Shown here one piece after another: positions 4,295 through 7,916 of a stretch of DNA of 40,875 nt (its first letter is position 1; every line of letters begins with the position of its first letter). The notes beneath the pieces were generated by a model. The model ran no database searches and was not told where the DNA came from. It was given only the letters and a program-made list of their open reading frames with translations. Source of the DNA: Candidatus Parcubacteria bacterium (GTDB lineage Bacteria; Patescibacteriota; Microgenomatia; Levybacterales; GWA1-39-11); NCBI GenBank assembly GCA_003599595.1, contig QZIP01000006.1, positions 1 to 40,875 of the forward strand. Reading direction: 5' to 3'. Made by a program: the position numbers and the translations under genes.

Positions 4295-5950
4295 ATGAAA
4301 AAATGGAAACTCTTAAGTAATAATACTAAATTAGAAAAGCCAGATCAAATCGTAGAACAGCTTCTTGTTAACAGAGGGATTGAGAAAAATAAGATCGGTG
4401 AATTCCTAAATCCTAATTTGTCTCAGGTTAATTTTAAGTCTGTTGGAATTGACCAAAAAGAAGTAAAAAAAGCAGTTGATAGAATACAAAAAGTAATTAA
4501 AAATAAAGAAAAAGTTATAATTTTTGGGGACTATGATGTTGATGGAATATGTGGTACCACCATCCTTTGGGAAGTTATCTATGATAGTCATAAAAACACC
4601 TTCCCCTATATTCCGGACAGAGAAGAAGAAGGATATGGTCTAAGTGTATCTGGAATAAAAAATATTTTAGTAAAATATCCTGATTGTAAATTAATTATTA
4701 CCGTTGATAATGGAATTGTTGCAAATGAGGCGGTAGATTTTGCAAACAGTAAGAATATTGATGTAATAATTACAGATCATCATTTAAAAGGAAAAAGATT
4801 GCCAAAAGCGCATTCTATTATTCACACCACACACATTTGTGGAAGTGCAGTTGCTTGGCTTTTTTCAAAAGAATTAGACCTTACAAATAAATTCAAAAAT
4901 CATTTGGAGCTTGCTGCAATTGCCACAGTTGCGGATCTTGTTCCTTTGCAGGGAGCAAATAGAACAATTCTCAAATTTGGTTTAGACGCATTAAAACAAA
5001 CAAAAAGAATAGGACTTACTGAATTATTGATTGAGTCTGGAATAGATAGATATAAATTAGGGACTTATGAGATTGGACACATAATAGGTCCCAGAATCAA
5101 TGCCAGTGGAAGAATTACCCATGCACTTGATAGCCTGAGGCTTCTTTGTACAAAAAATCATCTAAAAGCAAGAGAGTTTGCCACACTGCTTGGTAAAACA
5201 AATAAAGATAGACAGCTTATGACTAGCCAAACGTTTTCAGAAGCAAGATCAAGTTTTTCCAAAGAAAAACTATCCTCAAAAATAATATTTGCATCTCATA
5301 AGTCATATAACCAGGGAATAATTGGTCTTGTTGCCTCAAAACTGGTAGAAGAATTTTATAGACCATCTTTTGTTTTGTCTATTGGTGAAAAGTTTTCAAA
5401 AGGCTCTGCAAGATCTATTTCAGGATTAAACATTATTGAATTTATCCGCTTATCATCCCCTCTTTTGGCAGAGGCAGGGGGTCATGCTATGGCAGCAGGC
5501 TTTACTGTTGAAACTGCAAGAATTGATGATCTTAAAAAAGATTTTGAAAAAAGAGCGCTGGAGCTAATAAATGAAGAGCTTCTTCAAAAAACCATAAACA
5601 TTGATTTTGTCCTTGACTTAGAGCATATAAACTTTGACCTTTTTGATGCAATCCAAAAACTTGCACCTTTTGGAATCGGCAATCCAGAACCTGTATTTGT
5701 TGCCCGTAAGGTCAAAATTGAAGATTTGAGACTGGTTGGAGCAGGAAAGCACGTAAAACTAAAAGTCAAAAGTCAAAAGTCAAAAGTCAAAAGTGAGGAG
5801 TTTGATTCGATTGCGTTTGGAATGGGTGAGAAGGCGGAAGAACTGAATATTGGCGGCACAATTGATATTGTCTATACAATTAGTTTAGACACCTGGAATG
5901 GGACCAAAAAACTACAACTAAAGATTAGAGATATAGAAACAAACAAATAA
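4295..5950 (+). CDS. recJ: Single-stranded-DNA-specific 5'-3' exonuclease RecJ
   Basis: RecJ resects 5' DNA ends in recombination and repair. The 551-residue product has the DHH phosphoesterase motifs GDYDVDG (about residue 80), VDNGI and TDHH (about 163), the DHHA1 motif GGHAMAAGF (about 397), and a C-terminal OB-like domain beginning at INIDFVLDLEH. The OB region carries a 7-nt tandem repeat (5761-5794) that encodes a Lys/Ser/Gln/Val-rich insert. A TATAAC hexamer abuts the ATG directly, so the exact transcription start is unclear. Confidence 0.95.
   Translation: MKKWKLLSNNTKLEKPDQIVEQLLVNRGIEKNKIGEFLNPNLSQVNFKSVGIDQKEVKKAVDRIQKVIKNKEKVIIFGDYDVDGICGTTILWEVIYDSHKNTFPYIPDREEEGYGLSVSGIKNILVKYPDCKLIITVDNGIVANEAVDFANSKNIDVIITDHHLKGKRLPKAHSIIHTTHICGSAVAWLFSKELDLTNKFKNHLELAAIATVADLVPLQGANRTILKFGLDALKQTKRIGLTELLIESGIDRYKLGTYEIGHIIGPRINASGRITHALDSLRLLCTKNHLKAREFATLLGKTNKDRQLMTSQTFSEARSSFSKEKLSSKIIFASHKSYNQGIIGLVASKLVEEFYRPSFVLSIGEKFSKGSARSISGLNIIEFIRLSSPLLAEAGGHAMAAGFTVETARIDDLKKDFEKRALELINEELLQKTINIDFVLDLEHINFDLFDAIQKLAPFGIGNPEPVFVARKVKIEDLRLVGAGKHVKLKVKSQKSKVKSEEFDSIAFGMGEKAEELNIGGTIDIVYTISLDTWNGTKKLQLKIRDIETNK
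5761..5794 (+). repeat. AAAAGTC heptanucleotide tandem repeat inside recJ
   Basis: Four full copies of AAAAGTC and most of a fifth lie in the OB-domain region of recJ. The unit is not a multiple of three, so gain or loss of one copy would shift the frame of the last 50 or so codons. Confidence 0.9.
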
Positions 5951-5971: not shown

Positions 5972-6211
5972 TTATATTCCTCTAGGTATCCCTTCGGTTA
6001 GAACATATTCTTGTGGGCTTGAAGCTTCTCCGTTCGAGCGGTGATTATTTTTTCTAACAGGCACCAGTAATTCTCCCGTTTCAGAAGGAAAAATCTCACA
6101 ATTAGGATCTCTTATTTCTTCTCTTGTGGCCTGCCTATATGGCCCACAATAAACCCATTCATCAGACAAGCCAAAACAATTACGATGTGACAATATTTCT
6201 CTGTAGCTCAT
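5972..6211 (-). CDS. Small hypothetical protein behind a structured leader
   Basis: The family was not recognised. The 79-residue product is soluble-looking, with a Cys in each half (HRNCFGL and DPNCEIF) and a polar C-terminus. The track begins at a TTG (6223), but the ATG at 6211 is preferred because it follows GGGA at a suitable distance. The TTG lies in the U-tract of an upstream terminator hairpin. Transcription would start near 6356 from a good sigma70 promoter and cross a long rod structure and that terminator before reaching this ORF, so its expression would need read-through or antitermination. It is real with moderate confidence only. Confidence 0.5.
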   Translation of the reverse strand: MSYREILSHRNCFGLSDEWVYCGPYRQATREEIRDPNCEIFPSETGELLVPVRKNNHRSNGEASSPQEYVLTEGIPRGI

Positions 6212-6221
6212 ATTTTTTCCC

Positions 6222-6256
6222 AAAAAAAATCTCCCGCTTTTTGGCTGGGAGATCTT
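6222..6256 (-). terminator. Rho-independent terminator
   Basis: On the minus strand, ATCTCCC and GGGAGAT form a 7-bp stem extended by GC pairs around a short A-rich loop. Eight Us follow. It lies just upstream of the ATG at 6211 rather than after a gene, which suggests the end of an sRNA or an attenuator. Confidence 0.75.
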
Positions 6257-6356
6257 GATAATGACTTTTCAACAATGCACAAAATCTCCCTCTCTATCTA
6301 TTCTTAGAGATGCAGGAGTGTTGTGCTGTATATTGTTGAAAAGTTTCCATAATTAC
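6222..6356 (-). ncRNA. Candidate structured sRNA or attenuated leader
   Basis: Downstream of the promoter the minus-strand transcript can fold into a long bulged rod. Its elements are a 13-bp perfect stem (6264-6276 with 6332-6344), a 6-bp stem GCACAA/TTGTGC (6277-6282 with 6321-6326), a CTCC/GGAG stem, and TCTCT/AGAGA closing a loop of about 10 nt. A terminator hairpin with a U8 tract follows. GGGAGAT occurs both inside the rod and as the 3' arm of the terminator, so the terminator 5' arm has two possible partners. I do not recognise this as 6S, SRP RNA, tmRNA, RNase P or a T-box. It may be a free sRNA or an attenuator for the small ORF that follows. Confidence 0.6.
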
Positions 6357-6362
6357 ATAAAT

Positions 6363-6391
6363 ATAGTACAAGATAAAAACCGCCTTGTCAA
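6363..6391 (-). promoter_or_regulatory. Sigma70 promoter for the structured leader/sRNA
   Basis: The minus strand carries a consensus TTGACA (-35, 6391-6386), a 17-nt spacer and TACTAT (-10, 6368-6363). The predicted start is near 6356. This is one of the two best canonical promoters seen in the window. Confidence 0.7.
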
Positions 6392-6545: not shown

Positions 6546-7916
6546 ATGCAAAGAACCTTAACTACAGAGACAATTGAAAAAGTTGGACAGAGAGTACTTC
6601 TTGAAGGTTGGGTTGAAAGAGTGAGGACCCACGGAAAGCTTGTGTTCTTGGATTTACGCGACCGTAAAGGATTGATACAAGTTGTTGTAAATGCTCAAGT
6701 TTCTCAGGAAGCTTTCAATGTTGGCACAGAGCTTAAGCCTGAGGATGCAGTAGGGTTGGTGGGCATTGTCAATAAAAGACCGGAAAGAGCAATAAATAAA
6801 GAAATTAAAACTGGCATTGTAGAAATAGAAGCAAAGGAAATGAAAATTCTATCAAAGGCAAAAACCCTGCCTTTTGATATGACCAAAAAAGAATTGAAAC
6901 TAGAACTTCCTACCCTTTTTGACCATAGGTCTCTTACCTTAAAACACCCAAAACAACAGGAAATCTTTAAAGTTCAAGAAGCTATTGCTGATGCTTTCCG
7001 TGAAGCGGCAAAAAAACTTGATTGTACAGAGATCTTTATTCCAACAATTGCCGCATCTGCAACAGAGGGTGGAGCAGAGGTGTTTAGGGTTAATTATTAT
7101 GGCTTTCCAGCATATCTTACGCAAAGTCCACAGTTGTATAAGCAGATTATGGCGGGGGTCTTTGAAAGGGTATATACCATAGCTCATGCTTACAGGGCAG
7201 AACCTTCAGTTACTACAAGACATCTAACGGAAACTGTTCAAATGGATTGTGAAATAGCGTTTATTAATAGCTTTGACGAGCTTTTAGATGCGCTTGAATT
7301 TGTTGGAGCTTACGTTATTTCAGAAGCTGTTAAAAAATATGCTGATGCTATTCTTTCATTTGCCAAAGAATTACCTCTTGTTCCGGATCAGATTCCAAGA
7401 CTTAAAATGAGAGAAGCGCAGGAAATTATTTTTAAAAGAACAGGAAGAGATGTGAGGTCTGAAAAAGATCTTGCACCAGAGGATGAGAAAGAAATTTGGC
7501 TTTGGGCAAGGGAAGAAAAAAAATCAGATTTTGTTACGGTCACTCATTACCCAACAAAAAAAAGATCTTTTTATACAGCTCCTGATCCAGAAAATCCGGA
7601 ATATAGTCTTTCATATGATTTAATTTTTAAAGGAGTGGAGATACTCAGTGGCAGCCAGCGGATAAATGATTATGACGAGCTTGTTAAGGAAATAAAAGAG
7701 AGAGGTTTAAATCCAGCAGACTTTAGTCTTTATCTTCAGGCGTTTGAATATGGGATGCCTCCAGAAGGCGGATTTTCTTTTGGACTTGAGAGAATTACAA
7801 TGAAGCTTCTTGATCTTGCAAATGTTAGGGAAGCTTCGCTTTTCCCACGGGATATGGAAAGGGTAGATGAAAGATTATCCGTCATCCAAGAAAAACAACA
7901 AAGAAAAGAAAAGTAA
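6546..7916 (+). CDS. aspS: Aspartyl-tRNA synthetase, archaeal type (possibly nondiscriminating)
   Basis: This class II synthetase charges tRNA-Asp and, if nondiscriminating, tRNA-Asn. The 456-residue product has an N-terminal OB fold for the anticodon (GWVERVRTHGKLVFLDLRD), motif 2 with RAEPSVTTRHLTE near residue 215, and motif 3 GFSFGLERI near residue 417. It lacks the large insertion of bacterial AspRS (about 590 aa) and matches the shorter archaeal form. The segment EILSGSQRINDYDEL and the ending REASLFPRD favour AspRS over AsnRS. The neighbouring presence of a YqeY protein and GluRS fits an indirect Asn/Gln-tRNA route, but the amidotransferase itself is not in the window. Confidence 0.88.
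   Translation: MQRTLTTETIEKVGQRVLLEGWVERVRTHGKLVFLDLRDRKGLIQVVVNAQVSQEAFNVGTELKPEDAVGLVGIVNKRPERAINKEIKTGIVEIEAKEMKILSKAKTLPFDMTKKELKLELPTLFDHRSLTLKHPKQQEIFKVQEAIADAFREAAKKLDCTEIFIPTIAASATEGGAEVFRVNYYGFPAYLTQSPQLYKQIMAGVFERVYTIAHAYRAEPSVTTRHLTETVQMDCEIAFINSFDELLDALEFVGAYVISEAVKKYADAILSFAKELPLVPDQIPRLKMREAQEIIFKRTGRDVRSEKDLAPEDEKEIWLWAREEKKSDFVTVTHYPTKKRSFYTAPDPENPEYSLSYDLIFKGVEILSGSQRINDYDELVKEIKERGLNPADFSLYLQAFEYGMPPEGGFSFGLERITMKLLDLANVREASLFPRDMERVDERLSVIQEKQQRKEK

Follow-up and report, generated by a model that had tools for sequence, protein, structure and literature searches.

A probable ribosome-mediated transcription attenuator divergent from aspS in uncultured Microgenomatia

The minus strand between the genes recJ and aspS of a 1.4-Mb Candidatus Parcubacteria draft genome carries an RNA element that very probably acts as a ribosome-mediated transcription attenuator, in which a rod (pairing 1:2), an antiterminator (2:3) and a terminator (3:4) would exclude one another. 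Element and adjoining small open reading frame (ORF) are part of the window, the whole stretch of 40,875 nucleotides that was analyzed. A first-pass annotation made from the letters of this stretch had proposed an undescribed structured sRNA or attenuator. The attenuator part of this proposal stands and the sRNA part is not supported, as a leader ORF of conserved position and frame makes up the rod's 5' arm and the element precedes a gene. The idea that opening of the rod would free an antiterminator is shared here, and the agent that opens it is most likely a ribosome and not a ligand. To our knowledge, how genes are regulated in the candidate phyla radiation has hardly been studied, since only a few of its members can be cultivated. 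Where a leader peptide names its signal, the amino acids made and monitored by these bacteria could be read from sequence alone.

The promoter agrees with the sigma-70 consensus at 10 of 12 positions, in line with its earlier description as near-consensus, and puts the predicted transcription start near position 6356 (minus strand). The 146 nt of minus-strand RNA have a predicted folding energy of -47.7 kcal/mol, compared to -24.8 +/- 3.3 kcal/mol for dinucleotide shuffles (z -6.9; 0 of 200 shuffles equally stable). Two structural claims of the annotation were reproduced by this fold, which consists of a multi-part rod and a terminator hairpin with a U8 tract. Two further claims, a duplicated GGGAGAT and a two-way pairing, could be confirmed by inspection: the heptamer occurs at 6290-6284 and 6236-6230, and ATCTCCC at 6253-6247 is complementary to either copy (Table 1). 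The intrinsic terminator directly upstream of the putatively controlled gene was recovered by the fold and by a covariance model (R1, match at 6296-6223, 54.6 bits, E 8e-12, with the window among the model's own sequences). It is absent from the list of a promoter and terminator scanner, probably because its core loop of about 11 nt exceeds the scanner limit of 8.

Table 1. Features of the element and its neighborhood, in window coordinates
Feature	Position	Strand	Sequence or remark
Sigma-70-type promoter	6391-6363	minus	-35 TTGACA 6391-6386, 17-nt spacer, -10 TACTAT 6368-6363
Leader ORF	6350-6294	minus	METFQQYTAQHSCISKNR-UAG; 18 codons, ATG to UAG, read from sequence
Rod (pairing 1:2)	6264-6344	minus	predicted fold and outer-stem covariation
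Rod outer stem	6344-6332 with 6276-6264	minus	ACTTTTCAACAAT with ATTGTTGAAAAGT; predicted fold
Region 1, inner rod	6319-6315	minus	ACTCC, pairs with GGGAG of region 2; predicted fold
Region 2	6290-6280	minus	GGGAGATTTTG; partner region 1 (rod) or region 3 (antiterminator)
Region 3	6256-6247	minus	AAGATCTCCC; partner region 2 (antiterminator) or region 4 (terminator)
Region 4 and U8	6236-6222	minus	GGGAGATTTT; U8 6229-6222; intrinsic terminator with region 3
79-aa hydrophilic ORF	5972-6211	minus	ATG at 6211, about 11 nt past the U tract; GGGA 6221-6218 ahead
recJ	4295-5950	plus	flanking gene
aspS	6546-7916	plus	flanking gene, transcribed away from the element

An open frame (ATG GAA ACT TTT CAA CAA TAT ACA GCA CAA CAC TCC TGC ATC TCT AAG AAT AGA TAG) forms the 5' arm of the rod, which suggested a leader peptide, a hypothesis that was then tested on relatives. 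Its ATG lies about 6 nt past the predicted transcription start with no evident Shine-Dalgarno sequence ahead of it, and its UAG is followed by AGA and then GGGAGA, which places the leader stop 3 nt ahead of the GGGAGA of region 2.

The consequences of ribosome position were modeled by folding the part of the RNA not covered by a ribosome whose leading edge lies 15 nt past the first base of the A-site codon. With codons 1-4 in the A site the inner rod is predicted to hold region 2 and the terminator to form; with codons 5-16 region 2 would pair with region 3 in the nascent transcript, favoring the antiterminator; with codons 17-19, stop included, region 2 would be masked and the terminator would form. 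Hence, the gene would be OFF without translation, OFF with smooth translation and ON when the ribosome is delayed inside the leader. RNA polymerase would start and a ribosome would load at once on the nearly leaderless ORF. If no translation takes place, the rod and the terminator would both fold and transcription would stop at the U tract; if translation runs smoothly, the ribosome at the UAG would cover region 2 and pairing 3:4 would again form. Only a ribosome delayed with its A site at about codons 5-16 would break the rod and leave region 2 free to pair with region 3 before region 4 is made, so that termination would be prevented and the 79-aa gene transcribed. In the full-length RNA, the terminator is predicted to be more stable than pairing 2:3 for stalls at codons 8-16. 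The antiterminator must therefore win kinetically, while region 4 is being made, and antitermination in known attenuators is likewise decided during synthesis of this region.

A DNA similarity search with the whole region against phages and relatives revealed no full-length homologue; the leads it gave were limited to the terminator core and to three syntenic loci. Weak DNA matches in two relatives, when folded, displayed this layout, likewise between recJ and aspS. The relatives in the genome collection were Levybacteria and other Microgenomatia. aspS was found in 60 of the 82 genomes of the order, and its divergent side was then inspected. This unveiled the element in 27 genomes of the order (Levybacteria, Microgenomatia), the window's included, so that about one third of the surveyed related uncultured bacteria have the switch beside aspS. 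Upstream of all 27 leaders lies a promoter of constant form, TTGAC-16/19-TANNNT, whose -10 hexamer in G050 matches at only 3 of 6 positions. The leaders start 6-22 nt downstream of the -10 hexamer, and the predicted untranslated part is therefore no longer than about 15 nt. In 26 of the 27 elements, including that of the window, the leader ORF is located between promoter and terminator and closes after 13-20 codons, a few nucleotides from region 2; the exception, G049, has no in-frame stop. Within a strict interval of -12 to +3, whose anchor was set independently of the frame, 24 of the 27 leader stops are found; the expectation from 1000 dinucleotide-shuffled leaders is 4.2 +/- 1.9 (maximum 11), and the other two reading frames give 0 and 6. 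The leader peptides themselves differ completely in sequence between genomes; frame, length and stop position are kept.

Terminators and short ORFs are frequent in AT-rich DNA, and the shuffles do place about 4 of 27 stops correctly. Nevertheless, a chance combination of a terminator with an AT-rich short ORF can hardly explain the locus, in view of the synteny kept in 27 genomes, the shuffle and permutation tests, and a pattern scan that gave 16 matches in 15 of 281 class genomes and none in the 281 with the reversed pattern.

Covariation of the pairings was assessed by an own-versus-foreign test, in which the arms of each element were paired with their own partners or with those of other genomes, a comparison that avoids circularity. 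In 20,000 permutations, from which near-duplicate genomes only had been dropped so that relatedness is not fully removed, own partners were preferred for pairing 2:3 (z 4.2, p < 5e-5), for pairing 3:4 (z 7.5, p < 5e-5) and for the outer rod between the leader and the spacer after region 2 (z 7.2, p < 5e-5). The check that the first-pass annotation had put forward, covariation across homologous loci, thus turned out positive for these three pairings. Among the three mutually exclusive pairings 1:2, 2:3 and 3:4, the inner core of 1:2 is alone in lacking such an excess (z 0.6), region 2 being nearly invariant. Compensatory changes in the terminator of an 18-sequence alignment went beyond shuffles (1 of 500 was as high). 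Pairing 2:3 was possible in 83% of the cells of the MAFFT alignment of 18 sequences; here its covariation, seen in the own-versus-foreign test only, did not rise above shuffles because the GGGAGA core hardly varies.

The strong fold with its own promoter and terminator would also suit a stand-alone structured sRNA that ends at the terminator while the downstream ORF is expressed separately, and under any model the OFF state would yield a short terminated RNA. What is conserved, however, is the reading frame rather than a sequence or a loop; the alternative 2:3 helix is conserved as well, and a small ORF follows the terminator within tens of bases of the U tract in homologous loci. An sRNA of this kind is thus quite improbable. 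Even less probable is a ligand-binding riboswitch or a tRNA-binding T-box-like attenuator. Both share the layout of a rod followed by terminator and antiterminator, but a conserved aptamer or specifier/T-box sequence is absent, the conserved bases being those of regions 2-4 only, the leader ORF is conserved in frame and an Rfam match of either type was not obtained.

The annotation had recognized no known RNA family, and indeed no Rfam family reached its threshold. The best relevant weak match is Phe_leader (RF01859; 20.6 bits compared to a gathering threshold of 55, E 0.72), whose layout aligns over the whole model and from which the window's leader differs by the absence of a Phe run. Membership in this family, with a score below threshold, was rejected together with the other weak Rfam matches. 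A short leader ORF and three mutually exclusive helices are shared with the trp, his, leu, ilv, thr, phe and pheST attenuators of Proteobacteria and Actinobacteria. These attenuators also share the position of the stop, at which a terminating ribosome covers region 2, and a terminator just before the gene. In contrast to them, the window's leader has no regulatory codon run and starts almost at the predicted 5' end, and the element lies ahead of an orphan gene and uses a GGGAGA/TCTCCC core that recurs at many of the clade's loci. As far as can be judged from sequence, the element conforms to the general definition of leader-peptide attenuation, a known mode of control, and departs from the amino-acid-specific definition. 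Beyond the two phyla, according to PMC2965389, such systems were known only for a His leader of Firmicutes, ermC aside. Reports of attenuators in Patescibacteria or the candidate phyla radiation were not found in the literature outside subscription papers and preprints.

The covariance model of the element has matches in 53 of the 82 genomes of the order. Away from aspS, the same chassis carries leaders rich in the product amino acid ahead of amino-acid genes, the families of which were confirmed: LLTIDLLL and LLLNLVLLL before leuA-type genes, IITITTI before ilvA, FWFYF before DAHP synthase, SPSSSS before a serB-serA fusion, MMEMM before a metE-type gene, KKK before aspartokinase, Leu/Ile/Val-rich peptides before ilvE and WW before a PALP-family gene resembling trpB. 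Leaders that name their amino acid in this way confirm that the chassis has been read correctly. In the window's own genome (G000:C21, L231, 1400-3433), infC-rplT is followed by an attenuator, two orphan ORFs of 103 and 105 aa and pheS, a gene named from its sequence. The leader is rich in Phe and Tyr (MENHLSTYFYFYFTSQTG..., with YFYFYF), an apparent case of phenylalanine attenuation of a tRNA synthetase with orphan genes in the same transcription unit.

Two other loci were noticed in this survey. A second attenuator of the window's genome (G000:C21, L067/L185, 2300-3610) has a Leu/Val-rich leader, MEIRSVVLLNLSVLLLEEYLGLGEKI, before ORFs of 241 and 115 aa without an assigned function. At L214 (1490-2313), the leader MFNGTQLVCCCAPLT stands ahead of a PIG-L-type deacetylase, possibly reflecting cysteine attenuation of a thiol-related pathway.

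A codon run for one amino acid, as present in the specific leaders elsewhere, is absent from the window's leader and from most leaders of the aspS locus. The commonest residue of the window's leader is Gln, with three scattered copies, and residue diversity is 0.65 in the aspS-locus leaders compared to 0.54 in the specific ones. The aspS-locus leaders are poor in Gly, Asp and Glu, but composition-keeping shuffles also give few of them, so that the base composition of the arm accounts for the scarcity. Nor does the controlled gene appear to make or charge a sensed amino acid: the 79-aa ORF is without family and aspS lies on the other strand. The lack of a codon run points to general slowing of translation as the likely signal, which would mean that one of several charged tRNAs runs short or that the ribosome is inhibited. 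Within the attenuator model, we lean towards this general signal over a single amino acid. An attenuator specific for one amino acid, e.g. His or Cys through codons 11-13 (CAC TCC TGC), is unlikely. It would fit the specific use of the chassis elsewhere in the order and the single His codon found in 14 of 26 leaders, where shuffles would give 7.9 (z 2.9); CAC can however be explained by pairing with GUG after region 2, and both the missing codon run and the higher residue diversity argue against it.

General sensing is proposed by analogy to the bmrB leader of bmrCD in Bacillus subtilis, which combines a leader ORF with three alternative stem-loops, requires translation for read-through and responds to protein-synthesis inhibitors generally, not to one amino acid (PMC4191407). 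The likeness is one of layout and response, and bmrB controls a drug transporter, whereas the window's element precedes an orphan gene. A second parallel for a general sensor of slow translation is ermC, as summarized in PMC2965389. The chances seem about even that one chassis (a nearly leaderless leader ORF, a stop by GGGAGR, YCTCCC, and GGGAGR-U) is used clade-wide in Levybacteria and relatives as a standard device serving many amino acids and one or more tRNA synthetases, and that its aspS-divergent version senses translational slowdown in general and drives a hypervariable slot filled by small lineage-specific proteins. If so, the aspS-divergent version would amount to a response to starvation or ribosome stress in an uncultured radiation. 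The switch also singles out a set of anonymous small proteins that are probably made under translation stress.

The small ORF that the annotation had placed just behind the terminator is the 79-aa ORF, encoded like the element opposite to recJ and aspS. recJ converges on it, so it is the sole gene directly controllable by the switch on the minus strand. It has no Pfam or NCBIfam family, no significant PHROG match and no convincing homologue; weak matches to proteins of 740-790 aa were inspected and dismissed as chance. It is the best non-seed match, among all ORFs of the loci retrieved, to 'GAFRP', a family of small proteins found at the same locus in six genomes, but with an E of only 0.023, and a genome-wide GAFRP profile search did not recover it in the window's genome; membership is not claimed. 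The slot downstream of the switch contains different small hydrophilic proteins in different genomes, some of which share the short motifs GRLPKSER and TGFW..TYYENGV, and one of which has a sigma-70 region 4 domain. Orphan proteins of about 420-480 aa that look alike by eye occur at L129, L131, L137, L151, L181 and L221, loci of the aspS-divergent site and of another attenuator; those tested had no Pfam or NCBIfam match.

Further arrangements were seen beside aspS. In several genomes a promoter lies directly ahead of the gene beside aspS. Five genomes beyond the 27 (G072, G027, G034, G028 and G012; loci L136, L160, L164, L165 and L167) have a shorter, different layout at the aspS-divergent locus, in which the stop of a short leader adjoins the 5' arm of the terminator (ACTTCC...GGAAGT). 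Here, a ribosome that has reached the stop would keep the terminator from forming, and the logic may be reversed. In the regions upstream of aspS at L130, L135, L155 and L161, inverted TTGACAAGC / GCTTGTCAA-like pairs without an attenuator surround the divergent promoter region and may be back-to-back promoters. In the window itself, four tandem 7-nt copies of GTCAAAA lie inside recJ at 5764-5793 and are read as KVKSQKSKVKS in the OB domain.
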